Of a DNA stretch of 64,000 nt, positions 353 to 41,781 are shown in pieces. The translations under genes were made by a program, and so were the position numbers. The DNA comes from Donghicola mangrovi (GTDB taxonomy: Bacteria > Pseudomonadota > Alphaproteobacteria > Rhodobacterales > Rhodobacteraceae). A model generated the notes under the pieces. It worked only from the letters and a program-made list of their open reading frames with translations, ran no database searches and was not told the origin of the DNA. Numbering within the stretch: position 1 is the first letter of the stretch; each line of letters begins with the position of its first letter. The stretch spans positions 248,001 to 312,000 of the forward strand of contig NZ_JABCJE010000001.1 in assembly GCF_013377535.1 (NCBI RefSeq). The letters are read 5' to 3'.

Positions 353-374
353 CTTCATCTTGGTAAAAATACCC
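353..374 (+). repeat. 3'-end motif copy 1 (CTTCATCTTGG-type)
   Basis: CTTCATCTTGGTAAAAATACCC lies 11 bases after the accA stop codon and just before a GC-rich terminator hairpin. Four related copies lie at 11353, 17802, 31344 and 41731, always on the same strand as the gene just ended. Confidence 0.7.
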
Positions 375-383
375 AAAACAAAA

Positions 384-408
384 GCGGAGGCAGCGCCTCC
401 GCTTTTTC
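384..408 (+). terminator. Rho-independent terminator after accA
   Basis: An 8-bp perfect stem (GCGGAGGC / GCCTCCGC) with a 3-base loop is followed by five T residues. It lies between the convergent accA and GntR genes. Confidence 0.85.
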
Positions 409-9125: not shown

Positions 9126-10538
9126 ATGACCCGTTACGTTCGCAATATGATCGGCTACGGCCCCGATGCTCCAGACCCGCAATGGCCGGGTGGCGCAAAA
9201 ATCGCCGTGCAGTTCGTCCTGAACTACGAAGAAGGCGGCGAAAACTGCGTGTTGCACGGGGATCAGGCATCCGAGGCATTCTTGTCGGACATCGCGGGCG
9301 CCGCCATGTGGCAGGGCAAACGCCACTGGAACATGGAGTCGATCTACGAATATGGCGCACGGGCTGGGTTCTGGCGCCTGCACCGCCTGTTCACCAGCGC
9401 GGCCATCCCCGTGACGATCTACGGCGTGGCCACCGCCTTGGCCCGCAGCCCCGAGCAGGTCGAGGCGATGAAGGACGCCGGTTGGGAAATCGCCAGCCAC
9501 GGCCTGAAATGGGTCGAACACAAGGACATGCCCGAGGACGAAGAGCGCGCCGCCATCGCCGAAGCGATCCGCCTGCACACCGAAGTGGTCGGCGAGCGCC
9601 CCCTTGGCTGGTACACCGGCCGCTGCAGCGAAAACACCGTGCGTCTGGTCGCCGAAGAGGGCGGGTTCGCCTATGTCAGCGACACTTATGACGACGACCT
9701 GCCTTACTGGCTCGAGGTTGGGGATCGCGATCAACTGGTCATCCCCTACACCTTGGAAGCCAACGACATGCGTTTCGCCACCGCACCGGGCTACATCACG
9801 GGCGAGCAGTTCTACCAGTACCTGAAGGACGCGTTCGACACCCTGTATGCCGAAGGGTCGAATGGCCGCCCCGCGATGATGTCGATCGGCCTGCACTGCC
9901 GCCTGATCGGCCGCCCGGGCAAAATGGCGGGCCTCAAGCGGTTCATCGACTATGTCCGCATGCACAAAGACGTCTGGACCCCGACCCGTCTGGAAATCGC
10001 AGAGCATTGGGCGAAAACCCATCCCCACACCCGCAAACCGCGCCCCAGCCAAATGGACCGCGACACCTTTGTCGGCACCTTCGGCGGCATCTTCGAGCAT
10101 TCCCCGTGGATCGCCGAGCGCGCCTTCGATCTGGAACTGGGCCCCGCCCATGACCGCGCCGCCGGGGTTCACAGCGCGCTGGCCCGCATGTTCCGCAGTG
10201 CAAGATACGACGAACGCCTTGGCGTGCTGCGCGCCCACCCCGATCTGGCCGGAAAACTGGCCGCGGCCAAACGCTTGACCGCCGAAAGCACCGCCGAACA
10301 GTCCAGCGCGGGCCTCGACGCCCTGACCGACAAAGAGCGCGCCCTGTTCACCGAACTGAACACCGCCTACACCGAAAAACACGGCTTCCCGTTCATCATC
10401 GCCGTCCGCGACCATGACAAAGCCTCGATCCTGTCCGCGTTCGAACGCCGGATCGCCAACGACACCGCAACCGAATTCACCGAGGCCTGCAAACAGGTCG
10501 AACGCATCGCCCGCCTGCGCCTCGAGGACCTGCTATGA
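9126..10538 (+). CDS. puuE: Bifunctional allantoinase (PuuE) / OHCU decarboxylase (UraD)
   Basis: A 470-residue fusion. Residues 1 to about 305 are a polysaccharide-deacetylase-fold, metal-independent allantoinase of the PuuE type (QFVLNYEEGGENCVLHGD; EIASHGLKW; LGWYTGRCSENT). Residues from about 309 onward form an OHCU decarboxylase (IFEHSPWIAERAF; RAHPDLAGKLA; GFPFIIAVRDHD), which makes S-allantoin. The C-terminal activity feeds the N-terminal one, so the fusion covers OHCU to allantoate. AAAGGA lies upstream of ATG 9126. The end overlaps the next gene by 4 bases (ATGA), so they are coupled. Confidence 0.93.
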   Translation: MTRYVRNMIGYGPDAPDPQWPGGAKIAVQFVLNYEEGGENCVLHGDQASEAFLSDIAGAAMWQGKRHWNMESIYEYGARAGFWRLHRLFTSAAIPVTIYGVATALARSPEQVEAMKDAGWEIASHGLKWVEHKDMPEDEERAAIAEAIRLHTEVVGERPLGWYTGRCSENTVRLVAEEGGFAYVSDTYDDDLPYWLEVGDRDQLVIPYTLEANDMRFATAPGYITGEQFYQYLKDAFDTLYAEGSNGRPAMMSIGLHCRLIGRPGKMAGLKRFIDYVRMHKDVWTPTRLEIAEHWAKTHPHTRKPRPSQMDRDTFVGTFGGIFEHSPWIAERAFDLELGPAHDRAAGVHSALARMFRSARYDERLGVLRAHPDLAGKLAAAKRLTAESTAEQSSAGLDALTDKERALFTELNTAYTEKHGFPFIIAVRDHDKASILSAFERRIANDTATEFTEACKQVERIARLRLEDLL

Positions 10539-11350
10539 CCCAATACGCCTTCCCCCCCGGTGGCCTGCCCGAACAGGACGAAGACCCCGTCGGCACCGCC
10601 ATCTTCACCACCGCCTACGCGGTCCTGCCCGCCTGTACCCACCGCGATATCGTCACCAGCCTGCTGCCGGACTGGACGAACACCCGCGTCTGGATTCTAG
10701 CCCGCCCCCTGTCGGGCTTTGCCGAAACCTTCGCCCAATACGCGGTCGAAGTCGCGCCGAACGGCGGTTCAACCCGCCCCGAGCCGAACCCAGACGCCCA
10801 AGCCGTGCTCTTTGTCGCCAGCGGCACCATGACCCTGACGCTTGACGGCCAGGCCCACACCCTGACAGCGGGCGGCTATGCCTACATCCCGCCCCACAGC
10901 GCATGGACCGTCCACAACCCTGGCGACGAGCCCCTGCAATTCCACTGGGTCCGCAAGAAATACCAGAGCGTCCCCGGCCTCTCGCGCCCCGACGCCTTCG
11001 TCACCAGCGATCTGGAACGCACGCCGACCCCCATGCCCAACACGGACAAATGGGCCACCACGCGCTTTGCCGATCCCAGCGACATCCGCCACGACATGCA
11101 CGTCAACATCGTGACCTTCCAACCGGGCGGCCGCATCCCCTTTGCCGAGACCCACATCATGGAACACGGCCTCTACGTGCTCGAGGGCGAAGCAGACTAC
11201 CTGCTGAACGACCAATGGGTCCGCGTCGGCCCCGGCGATTTCATGTGGCTCCGCGCCTTCTGCCCCCAAGCCTGCATCGCCCGCGGCCACACCCCGTTCC
11301 GCTACCTTCTCTACAAGGACGTGAACCGCCATCCGGACCTCACGCTCTGA
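10535..11350 (+). CDS. (S)-ureidoglycine aminohydrolase, bicupin
   Basis: A 271-residue protein with two cupin halves, matching YlbA/AllE/UGHY, which converts (S)-ureidoglycine to (S)-ureidoglycolate and ammonia. The first cupin lies around VLFVASGTMTLTLDG and YAYIPPHSAWTVHN. The second, metal-binding, cupin has ETHIMEHGLYVLEGEADYLLN, with the Glu/His ligands. Automatic annotation sometimes calls such proteins bifunctional allantoicase/aminohydrolase. It is coupled to puuE upstream by a 4-base overlap. A 3'-end motif and strong hairpins follow (11353-11430) before allA. Confidence 0.9.
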   Translation: MTQYAFPPGGLPEQDEDPVGTAIFTTAYAVLPACTHRDIVTSLLPDWTNTRVWILARPLSGFAETFAQYAVEVAPNGGSTRPEPNPDAQAVLFVASGTMTLTLDGQAHTLTAGGYAYIPPHSAWTVHNPGDEPLQFHWVRKKYQSVPGLSRPDAFVTSDLERTPTPMPNTDKWATTRFADPSDIRHDMHVNIVTFQPGGRIPFAETHIMEHGLYVLEGEADYLLNDQWVRVGPGDFMWLRAFCPQACIARGHTPFRYLLYKDVNRHPDLTL

Positions 11351-11352
11351 TG

Positions 11353-11374
11353 CTTCAGCTTTGCCAAAATACTC
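11353..11374 (+). repeat. 3'-end motif copy 2
   Basis: CTTCAGCTTTGCCAAAATACTC starts two bases after the aminohydrolase stop. It is followed by GGCGC-CCAT-GCGCC and then GGGGGG-CAGACA-GCCCCC stems reaching to about 11420. This is the only copy of the five that lies within a same-strand gene series. Confidence 0.65.
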
Positions 11375-11437
11375 TCGGGGGGAGGCGCCCATGCGCCGGG
11401 GGGCAGACAGCCCCCCTCCCCGCTCAAAGGCCCCACG

Positions 11438-17801: not shown

Positions 17802-17824
17802 CTTCATCTTGGGATAAATACCCC
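17802..17824 (+). repeat. 3'-end motif copy 3
   Basis: CTTCATCTTGGGATAAATACCCC starts two bases after the stop of the DgoK-like gene. It is followed by the hairpin GGAGGCGG-TCCTG-CCGCCTCC (17830-17850) between two convergent genes. Confidence 0.7.
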
Positions 17825-17863
17825 CGCCGGAGGCGGTCCTGCCGCCTCCACACGCGCAACCGA

Positions 17864-18130: not shown

Positions 18131-19060
18131 GTGAGCAACGCGATCGAAATCGAAGGACTGCGAAAAATCTACAGCGGCAGCGGGAAATCCGCCCCCAAAG
18201 AGGCGCTGAAGGGTATCGACCTGTCCATTCCCCGCGGCTCGGTCTTTGGTTTGCTGGGCCCCAACGGCGCGGGCAAATCGACGCTGATCAACATTCTGGC
18301 AGGCCTTGTGGTGAAAACCGAAGGCACCGTGCGCATCTGGGGCTGGGATCAGGACAAGAACCCGCGCCAGTCGCGCGCCTCGATCGGAATCATGCCGCAA
18401 GAGCTGAACCTTGACCCGTTCTTTACCCCGCGTGGCTCGCTCGAGGTTCAGGCGGGCCTCTATGGCGTGCCCCGCAGCCAGCGCCGCAGCGATGAAATCC
18501 TGAAATTCGTCGGCCTCGAGGACAAGGCAGACGCCTATGCCCGCACCCTGTCCGGGGGGATGCGCCGCCGCCTGCTGCTGGGCAAAGCATTGGTCCACCG
18601 GCCCCATATTCTGGTGCTGGACGAACCCACTGCGGGCGTCGACATCCAGCTGCGCCAGATGCTGTGGAACAACGTCCGCAAGCTCAATCAGGAAGAGGGC
18701 ATGACCATCATCCTGACCACCCACTATCTCGAAGAGGCCGAGGAGATGTGCGACGAAATCGCCATCATCAATCAGGGTTCTCTGGTGGCCCGCGACACCA
18801 CGTCGAACCTACTGGGCCGTCTGGATGCCAAGGCGATGGTGATTCAGCCCGAAAGCACCCCCACCCGCCTGCCCGAGGGCGAAGGTCTGGACGTGTCCAC
18901 CCGCCACGACGGCGCGCTGGTGATCCGCTATCACAGCAAGCAGATCACCGCAGACCGTGTCCTGCACGCCGTCCGTGACGCAGGCATCGTGATTCGTGAC
19001 GTCAAGACCGAGCAAGCCGATCTGGAAGACGTGTTCCTGAAGCTGACCCACTCTGCCTGA
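18131..19060 (+). CDS. ABC-2 type transporter ATP-binding protein (YadG-like)
   Basis: A 309-residue ABC ATPase. Walker A is GPNGAGKST, the signature is LSGGMRRRLLLGKAL, and Walker B is ILVLDEPTAGVD, followed by the switch TTHYLEEAEEMCDEIA. A C-terminal extension after about residue 225 is typical of ABC-2 exporters. The GTG start at 18131 is chosen because the conserved region begins directly after it (SNAIEIEGLRK). It resembles E. coli YadG, which is normally paired with a permease (YadH). No ABC-2 permease gene is adjacent here; the next gene lies on the other strand with only 3 bases between the stops. Confidence 0.88.
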   Translation: MSNAIEIEGLRKIYSGSGKSAPKEALKGIDLSIPRGSVFGLLGPNGAGKSTLINILAGLVVKTEGTVRIWGWDQDKNPRQSRASIGIMPQELNLDPFFTPRGSLEVQAGLYGVPRSQRRSDEILKFVGLEDKADAYARTLSGGMRRRLLLGKALVHRPHILVLDEPTAGVDIQLRQMLWNNVRKLNQEEGMTIILTTHYLEEAEEMCDEIAIINQGSLVARDTTSNLLGRLDAKAMVIQPESTPTRLPEGEGLDVSTRHDGALVIRYHSKQITADRVLHAVRDAGIVIRDVKTEQADLEDVFLKLTHSA

Positions 19061-31343: not shown

Positions 31344-31364
31344 CTTCTTCTTTGCCTAAATACT
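31344..31364 (+). repeat. 3'-end motif copy 4
   Basis: CTTCTTCTTTGCCTAAATACT lies 5 bases after the last importer gene and reaches the stop codon of convergent argE. It is the most divergent copy, and no separate hairpin follows. Confidence 0.55.
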
Positions 31365-32530
31365 CACTGCGCTTCCATCAGCCGCGCCGTGATGCCGTCG
31401 AGCATGTTCAAACACATCTCCAGCTGCGCAATCTCGACATACTCGTCGGGCTTGTGCGCCTGCACGATGCTGCCGGGTCCGCAAACCACCACGTCCATGC
31501 CCAAAGACTGGAACAGCCCCCCTTCGGTGCCAAAGGCCACAACGTCCACGTCATTCGCCCCTATCAGGGCCAGCACCAGATCACGGGCGGCGTTGCGCTC
31601 CATCGGTTCCAGCCCCGCGACCTCTCCAATCGTTTCGGTCACCACATCCGCGTCGGGATGAACCTCTCGCATGGCGGGCAGCAGCACCTCGCCGACAAAT
31701 GCGCGCACTTCCTCGGTCACATAATCATAGTCCGAGGGCTGAACCGGCCGGAATTCCCACTCCACCATCGCCTTGCCGGGGATCACGTTGTGGGCCACGC
31801 CCCCATGCAGACCCCCGATGTTCAAAGTGGTCCAAGGCGGATCAAACCGCCCCCCATGAGGCGCGCGCATCTTCAATGCCTCGCGGACCTCCAGCAGGTG
31901 GCCAACGTAACGCACCGCATATTCGACCGCATTCACTCCGGCGTCAGGCGCGCTTCCGTGCCCCTCGAGACCGGTGAAATGGGTGGTGTATTCGCAGCAG
32001 CCCTTGTGCCCTTCGATCACGCGCATCTCGGTCGGCTCACCAATTACGGCGATAGATGGTTTTAGCGGATTATTCCGTAACAACCCCACCAAAGCCTGCG
32101 CCCCCAGACAGCCGGTTTCCTCGTCATAGGTAAAGGCAAAGTGCAGCGGCCGCTTCAGCGCCGACACATCCAGATCGGGCAACAGCGCGATACAGCAGGC
32201 AATGAACCCCTTCATATCGCAGGCGCCACGGCCATAGAGCCGCCCGTCCCGTTCGACCATCTCAAAGGGATCGCTGGACCAATCCTGATCCGCCACCGGC
32301 ACCACATCGGAATGGCCGGACAGCACAATGCCCCCGTCCACCTCGGGACCAAGGGTGGCCCACAGGTTCGCCTTGGCCCCCGTGGCATCATGCTGAAGGG
32401 TCACACGGGCCCCGACCTGAGTCAGAGCGTCCTGAAGATAGCCGATAATGTCGGCGTTCGAGTCAACCGAGATCGAGGGAAACCGGATCAGATCCGCCAA
32501 TATCGCTTGGGCGCGGGATAGCTTGTTCAT
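31364..32530 (-). CDS. argE: Acetylornithine deacetylase-type M20 amidohydrolase
   Basis: A 388-residue zinc amidohydrolase. The M20 metal site is visible: SGHSDVVPV (His and Asp), YGRGACDMKGF (bridging Asp), DEETGCLGA (catalytic Glu-Glu), VIGEPTEMRV, and a C-terminal CGPGSIVQAHKPDEYV (last His). The overall pattern fits ArgE, which removes acetate from N-acetylornithine. Because it is overlapped by doeA, it could instead act on N-acetyl-diaminobutyrate, a related substrate of ectoine breakdown; the sequence alone does not decide. Its start lies 68 bases inside doeA, implying tight coupling. Confidence 0.85.
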   Translation of the reverse strand: MNKLSRAQAILADLIRFPSISVDSNADIIGYLQDALTQVGARVTLQHDATGAKANLWATLGPEVDGGIVLSGHSDVVPVADQDWSSDPFEMVERDGRLYGRGACDMKGFIACCIALLPDLDVSALKRPLHFAFTYDEETGCLGAQALVGLLRNNPLKPSIAVIGEPTEMRVIEGHKGCCEYTTHFTGLEGHGSAPDAGVNAVEYAVRYVGHLLEVREALKMRAPHGGRFDPPWTTLNIGGLHGGVAHNVIPGKAMVEWEFRPVQPSDYDYVTEEVRAFVGEVLLPAMREVHPDADVVTETIGEVAGLEPMERNAARDLVLALIGANDVDVVAFGTEGGLFQSLGMDVVVCGPGSIVQAHKPDEYVEIAQLEMCLNMLDGITARLMEAQ

Positions 32531-41689: not shown

Positions 41690-41730
41690 CATAAGCTCCA
41701 AATAAAAAGGGGAAGGCACCGCGCCCTCCC

Positions 41731-41752
41731 CTTCATCTTGGCAAAAATACCC
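41731..41752 (+). repeat. 3'-end motif copy 5
   Basis: CTTCATCTTGGCAAAAATACCC, the cleanest copy, lies 41 bases after rsmD. It is directly preceded by the imperfect hairpin GGGGAAGGC-ACCGC-GCCCTCCCC (41709-41731). It separates convergent genes. Confidence 0.7.
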
Positions 41753-41781
41753 ACATTACGCCGCCAGCCAGCGGCGTGTCA

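Follow-up and report, generated by a model that had tools for sequence, protein, structure and literature searches.

The window, the 64,000-nucleotide stretch of the Donghicola mangrovi genome that we analyzed, holds all five of the related motif copies claimed in an original prediction from sequence, each on the plus strand (Table 1). As predicted, four of them lie between convergent genes, while the fifth (11353) sits in a gap between two plus-strand genes, genes being here and throughout the output of a codon-usage caller and not an annotation. The claim that most copies have a hairpin beside them also stands, since four of the five have one on the AAATACYC side of the motif (judged by eye). 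The 31344 copy is without a hairpin on that side because it directly adjoins the stop codon of the gene on the minus strand. The further claim, that every copy follows a plus-strand gene and has the same orientation as that gene, is correct to the letter yet misleads, as a copy in a convergent gap can be owned by either gene. The 11353 copy, which is of the rarer orientation type described below, occupies the same place in G481, G482, and G483 (so that each of the four genomes sampled from the genus has it), and units related to its composite hairpin occur at other places of the genus. Elsewhere in the window, 18241-18307 and 18548-18754 are similar to several other sites within the genus, at ~72-96% and ~66-94% identity, respectively; both are perhaps coding. 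When the window was compared with Rfam 15, only a tRNA scored above the gathering score.

Table 1. Motif copies in the window and the hairpins next to them
Feature	Position	Strand	Context
Motif copy CTTCATCTTGGTAAAAATACCC	353-374	+	Convergent gap; 11 nt after + stop, 42 nt before - stop; sense reading on - strand
Hairpin GCGGAGGC/GCCTCCGC	383-403		AAATACCC side of 353 copy; A-/T-run flanks; by eye
Motif copy CTTCAGCTTTGCCAAAATACTC	11353-11374	+	Between two + genes, in the predicted orientation; 2 nt after stop of ORF 10535-11350
Composite hairpin TCGGGGGGAGGCGC..GCGCCGGGGGGCAGACAGCCCCCC	11375-11416		Class GGGGGCAG..CCCCC; by eye
Motif copy CTTCATCTTGGGATAAATACCC	17802-17823	+	Convergent gap; directly behind + stop
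Hairpin CCGCCGGAGGCGG..CCGCCTCC	17824-17849		GCCGGAGGC class; by eye
Motif copy CTTCTTCTTTGCCTAAATACTC	31344-31365	+	Between convergent genes; overlaps minus-strand stop
Hairpin GGGGAAGGC..GCCCTCCC, then CTTCATCTT	41709-41730	+	CTTC side; by eye
Motif copy CTTCATCTTGGCAAAAATACCC	41731-41752	+	Convergent gap; 41 nt after + stop, 29 nt before - stop
Hairpin CGCCGC..GCGGCG	41759-41776		AAATACCC side of 41731 copy; by eye

An asymmetric 22-mer at gene ends

The family motif is an asymmetric 22-mer, [C/T]TTCnnYTT-N5-AAATACYC. With up to two mismatches, CTTCATCTTN5AAATACYC matches 113 places in the D. mangrovi genome (4,295,174 bases in 63 contigs), a density of ~26 per Mb, whereas the reversed pattern, used as a control, has none in the same 4.30 Mb. 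Of these places, 52 are on the forward and 61 on the reverse strand of the 63 unordered contigs. The string in the title of the original prediction, which has one extra base, has no match at three mismatches because the 22 letters of the motif are contiguous, with no gap. In 464 kb chosen regardless of the motif (C23:1-400000 together with the window, which is the source of the finding), scores of 20 bits or more occur at 25 places, and only five more places score between 8 and 20 bits; five first-order Markov sequences gave means of 1.0 place at ≥8 bits and 0.0 at both ≥18 and ≥20 bits. The motif family far exceeds chance. The spacer between its two blocks measures 5 in 23 places of the 464 kb, 4 in three, and 6 in four. 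The motif also surfaces without any pattern being supplied: when 8-mers were ranked de novo by over-representation in the gaps at gene 3' ends of a 400-kb stretch of the genome, the first was GAGTATTT/AAATACTC, which is present in 17 such gaps and occurs 23 times overall. Among the papers listed in a literature search of openly accessible articles, we recognized no description of this 22-mer motif.

As for its position, a called stop lies within 100 nt of 84 of the 97 D. mangrovi copies that we retrieved (from 90 loci fetched around the 113 matched places), as against 34% of intergenic positions. The motif is thus tied to gene ends, as had been proposed, rather than spread evenly with respect to stops, and it is densest in convergent gaps. 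In the 464 kb, where 13 copies are convergent, 10 tandem, and one divergent, with one more inside a called gene, this corresponds to intergenic densities of 1.74 (convergent), 0.30 (tandem), and 0.07 (divergent) copies per kb. Among the 97 copies, with the motif read as plus, 38 are between convergent genes, 35 between two minus-strand genes, 17 between two plus-strand genes, and one between divergent genes; five are inside called genes, even though 88% of the 400-kb stretch is coding by our own gene calls, and one is at a contig end. The same order, less steep, is seen in other genomes (2.20 convergent, 1.60 tandem, and 0.46 divergent copies per kb). There, 107 of 150 copies have a called stop within 100 nt, 12 are inside called genes, and 11 are in divergent gaps; these copies come from 119 loci among the matches listed that were selected for CTTCATCTTGG, which makes letter counts in them circular.

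The orientation of the motif in tandem gaps gives no support to the original prediction, which had taken the direction of the preceding gene as the norm. In D. mangrovi, 35 of 52 tandem copies have the gene end on their hairpin side, against 17 in the opposite, predicted reading (p = 0.018), and in the 119 loci elsewhere the corresponding figures are 52/83 and 31/83 (p = 0.028). The unbiased 464 kb are evenly divided (5 vs. 5, n = 10). A preference for the coding strand is therefore not borne out and, where there is a preference, it runs ~2:1 the other way. The commoner sense reading is stop, hairpin, GRGTATTT, N5, AAGnnGAAG. At one D. mangrovi locus (L073), both genes of a convergent pair are tagged in this sense reading, the tags following the respective stops at 48 and 50 nt.

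This arrangement bears on the possibility that the motif acts in RNA, with RNase E or another ribonuclease cutting GU-AUUU behind the hairpin to leave a hairpin-protected 3' end. The enterobacterial RNase E consensus is RN|WUU, which GUAUU fits, and the hairpin does precede GUAUUU in the sense reading. AU is also enriched around the cut at RNase E sites of Rhodobacter sphaeroides, according to the accessible part of PMC6238624. However, 17/52 tandem copies in D. mangrovi and 31/83 in other genomes are oppositely oriented, so that the RNA there carries no GUAUUU, and processing would leave the conserved AAGnnGAAG half unexplained. An RNA-processing signal, which had been part of the original prediction, fits less easily with the occurrence of copies in either orientation, and we regard this reading as improbable.

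Hairpins, paired copies, and comparison with terminators

Folding of 45 nt on either side of the motif places the hairpin on the AAATACYC side. The mean MFE on the AAATACYC side is -19.5 both in D. mangrovi and in other genomes, as against -10.2 and -10.1, respectively, on the CTTC side; the z-scores are -1.56 and -1.37 on the first side and -0.48 and 0.04 on the second. Since motif-free D. mangrovi gene ends have a similar z-score (-1.65) and a less negative MFE (-13.8), the hairpins next to the motif are ordinary by z-score and stronger in absolute terms. Their paired positions are spread, with no single fixed distance from the motif. By eye the hairpins fall into several classes, two of which were counted. 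The GGGGGCAG..CCCCC class follows the AAATAYYC core in 5/7 cases in the 464 kb of D. mangrovi and in 30/37 cases in loci chosen for the motif. Some copies have an extra hairpin on the CTTC side that ends right at CTTC, as at 41709-41730.

Copies may also be paired. In the loci of other genomes there are 16 head-to-head pairs, with a gap of 8-9 nt in 11 of them and a maximum gap of 23 nt. The two copies agree in their conserved letters, while the middle N3 letters are complementary at 18/48 positions, compared with a mean of 20.2 when re-dealt. We accordingly rejected the idea that a head-to-head pair forms one RNA hairpin; two adjacent sites fit better than one RNA stem.

Words that differ between lineages and inverted pairs at gene ends recall the DNA-uptake signals of Haemophilus and Neisseria (USS/DUS), whose words likewise stand at gene 3' ends, sometimes in inverted pairs, and have dialects. 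USS/DUS copies are found in both coding and intergenic DNA, at hundreds per Mb. The motif has far fewer copies (113 in 4.30 Mb), and hardly any in called genes (5/97 and 12/150) in spite of the large coding share. In Haemophilus, inverted USS pairs form terminators, as reported in the accessible part of PMC5217627, while pairs of our motif are not complementary in the middle and form no single stem. It is very improbable that the motif is an uptake signal with dialects. The same source, as far as its accessible part goes, describes two comparable bipartite motif pairs: in A. ebreus, GCTTAT(N)5AAGCG, with 114 copies (of which 44 are convergent, 4 divergent, and 59 co-oriented), and in P. naphthalenivorans, ATAGCT(N)22CAAAAG, with 125 copies (of which 34 are convergent). 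Like our motif, these number ~100 copies, are mostly intergenic, often convergent, and near gene ends, and are unexplained (PMC5217627). They have other sequences and belong to other lineages, and that part of the source gives no hairpin side, orthology, or dialects for them.

The use of both orientations, the mostly fixed spacing of the two blocks, the changing words, and the 8-9 bp gaps of head-to-head pairs would suit a binding site for a nucleoid-organizing or topology protein that favors convergent gene ends. Such a site would not need a one-sided hairpin, however, and we consider this explanation quite unlikely.

We compared the ends in the sense reading with intrinsic terminators, scoring an end as terminator-like when 0-2 nt separate a GC-rich hairpin from a U-tract (five or more T in eight), a score to which the GTATTT tail of the motif itself contributes T's. 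By this measure, 10/15 sense-side ends in D. mangrovi are terminator-like vs. 53/180 motif-free ends (p = 0.007), and 27/53 vs. 15/53 in a second set from the same genome (p = 0.03). In other genomes, there is no clear difference (13/64 vs. 44/310, p = 0.25). Shuffled ends are terminator-like in 15/214 cases. The motif shares with Rho-independent terminators a hairpin and then a T-rich stretch behind a stop codon, but differs from them in that GRGTATTT is a weak U-tract at a variable distance, with a second conserved block, AAGnnGAAG, beyond it.

Several features near copies were noted in passing. Around L097:19810-19885 (C23, ~139.8 kb) of D. mangrovi there is, by eye, an array of about a dozen GTCTGC hexamers, some 0.8 kb behind an ABC-transporter ATPase gene. 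Three GRGTATTT tails lie between the two, one of which (~L097:19238-19265) looks like a terminator, having a TTCG loop and GGGTATTTTTTTG. Three loci (L150, L193, and L194), whose flanking genes match those of the D. mangrovi locus L061, have in common a sequence with GGCTCTCCAGCCTGTNCC between two outward-reading motif copies, and a related string is present in L071. This sequence is possibly an undescribed small RNA or leader; there was no match to Rfam in L061, L071, L193, or L150.

Distribution among genomes and change between sister species

The original prediction that the motif is family-specific is supported by two samples, in which repeated copies are confined to the family of D. mangrovi. 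In the class sample, the exact pattern CTTCNNCTTN5AAATACYC is found in 5 of 289 genomes, with 63 copies in D. mangrovi and a single copy in each of the other four; three genomes of the same family are without it. In the order sample, it is found in 59 of 196 genomes, all 196 belonging to the family, so that this sample offers no between-family comparison. With TTCNNYTTN5AAATACYC, the number of carriers there rises to 83/196, at least 10 copies being present in 41 genomes and none in 113, which implies that the motif is dispensable in the latter. Presence is patchy even within genera (e.g., 0 and 60 copies in g264). Among the matches listed, carriers include Rhodobacter, Cypionkella, Tabrizicola, Allgaiera, Maritimibacter, Roseivivax, and Pseudorhodobacter, as well as a MAG named only as alphaproteobacterium. 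The words vary between genomes, CTTCATCTTGG, CTTCATCTTGC, and CTTCTTCTTTTC being examples. Another dialect in genomes with few or no copies was considered and rejected, no comparable 3' word being present in 200 kb each of G252 and G022.

The composite element at 11351-11420 of the window was traced in mobile DNA. A phage origin was rejected, these 70 bases having no match in 50,697 phage records. Twelve NCBI-annotated plasmid records match the element; six were opened, and in five of these the match is behind an annotated stop, while in record H8 it is inside an annotated gene. In plasmids of Phaeobacter and Thioclava (L348 and L349), the element lies 6 nt behind a GIY-YIG nuclease gene of equal length, which indicates that it can travel with plasmid backbones. 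Separately, a pattern of the motif family occurs in 28 viral-contig stretches. In the genomes G320 and G398, the pattern is unevenly divided between the strands (56 vs. 29 and 11 vs. 3, respectively), which may reflect contig orientation or replication strand.

The sister species G481 allows copies to be compared place by place. Of the G481 copies, 12 fall in the unbiased 464 kb of D. mangrovi, and 12/12 have the motif at the same place there. Across these 12 pairs, core positions 16-20 and 22 show 0/72 differences, as against 10/34 at positions 12-14 and 429/2788 (15%) in the flanks. A larger set is made of 44 G481 copies, taken from the first 40 stretches in a list of 87 places, all pattern-selected and hence with the G481 letters conditioned. 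Against all the D. mangrovi DNA retrieved, which lies mostly around that species' own copies and so favors sharing, 34/44 were placed, and the 10 unplaced may lack a partner. The sampling bias lowers the weight of this figure, which the unbiased 12/12 restores. Of the 34 placed copies, 32 are shared; L304 proved on inspection to be shared with L003, and in L296 the motif is on the opposite side of a hairpin common to both species. In the 30 pairs compared letter by letter (4/34 were dropped: L296, L304, L315-, and L325-), positions 16-20 and 22 differ in 0/180 cases and position 21 in 17%, while positions 12-14 differ in 23-45% (45% at position 13) and the flanks in 11-17%.

The interior letters switch between a few "words." The word has changed while the surroundings are nearly unchanged in L294, L317, and L326, and TTTCTGCTTTGC in G481 is often opposite CTTCTTTTTGC in D. 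mangrovi (L306, L309, L320, and L321). Fixed sites with changing words may mean that recognition is under selection and that its specificity shifts. The word changes could instead come from gene conversion between copies, because L324 has also switched its hairpin class. The stem changes speak against selection on it as RNA: of 86 stem pairs changed between the two species, 25 still pair, fewer than the mean of 37.6 when re-dealt, with two double compensations and 61 broken pairs, in what is a weak test of covariation (one species pair, single-sequence folds, and two pairs, L296 and L304, dropped). Across genera, a first comparison placed 50 of 52 gene-gene matches beside copies at the same gene end, a figure inflated by paired copies; on unbiased DNA there was no such effect (2/47 vs. 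19/367).

These comparisons bear on whether the motif is a dispersed palindromic repeat of the REP/BIME kind, spread by copying, tolerated at gene ends, and with little function of its own. REPs are short conserved palindromes with a 5' tetranucleotide of the GTAG/GGAG type. Like the REP/BIME of enterobacteria and pseudomonads, the motif is dispersed, extragenic, hairpin-bearing, frequent at convergent and tandem 3' ends, and rare in divergent gaps. Its patchiness within genera, the recurrence of 58-71 bp units elsewhere in the genus at 76-91% identity, and the repeated GGGGGCAG..CCCCC hairpin class counted above would also suit a repeat that spreads by copying. However, what is conserved is the asymmetric 22-mer, which lies outside the stem and next to hairpins of several classes, and a conserved palindrome with a GTAG/GGAG-type tetranucleotide was not found. 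The 12 unbiased sister copies are common to both species, with an unchanged core and a differing interior, and the five places of intermediate score leave few candidates for decayed copies. Y1_Tnp is slightly commoner in genomes with at least 10 copies (8/41 vs. 12/155, p = 0.04), yet it has no match in the D. mangrovi genome or in 33 of those 41, and we rejected a RAYT-driven REP. A REP/BIME-like origin seems unlikely, although we take it more seriously than the other alternatives weighed above.

A putative reader of gene ends

Bacterial 3' ends are usually explained by a hairpin plus U-tract or by Rho, and neither mechanism requires an extended specific sequence. The motif is a conserved, oriented 3'-end element, and a role at transcript ends is plausible. 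We tentatively favor, with a probability of roughly 45%, a lineage-specific 3'-end or terminator element of some Rhodobacteraceae that is read by a putative factor. In the sense reading, the gene stop is followed by the GC-rich hairpin and then by GRGTATTT-N5-AAGnnGAAG. The hairpin and GUAUUU(UU) would constitute an imperfect intrinsic terminator, or would fix the 3' end of the RNA, while the whole 22 bp would be read as DNA by the factor, which may secure termination or insulation between neighboring, above all convergent, transcription units. If the specificity of the factor shifted, sites would stay and their letters would change between a few words. A NusG paralogue (PF02357) was rejected as the reader, there being one match in the D. 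mangrovi genome and at least one in 195/196 genomes of the order sample.

A more specific version can be imagined, in which a dedicated DNA-binding factor sits on the oriented 22-mer beyond the hairpin and acts as a termination roadblock or insulator, mainly between convergent genes and either singly or head-to-head, its specificity having shifted between lineages and dragged some hundred sites along. Spelled out to this degree, the proposal is speculative and unlikely. The broader reading, an element of gene ends with a putative factor that recognizes it, would add a case to the small group of unexplained motif pairs in convergent gaps described in the accessible part of PMC5217627. A conserved 22-bp word that keeps its place at gene ends while its interior is rewritten from one sister species to the other suggests that gene ends have a trans-acting reader, and such a reader becomes testable in culturable organisms.
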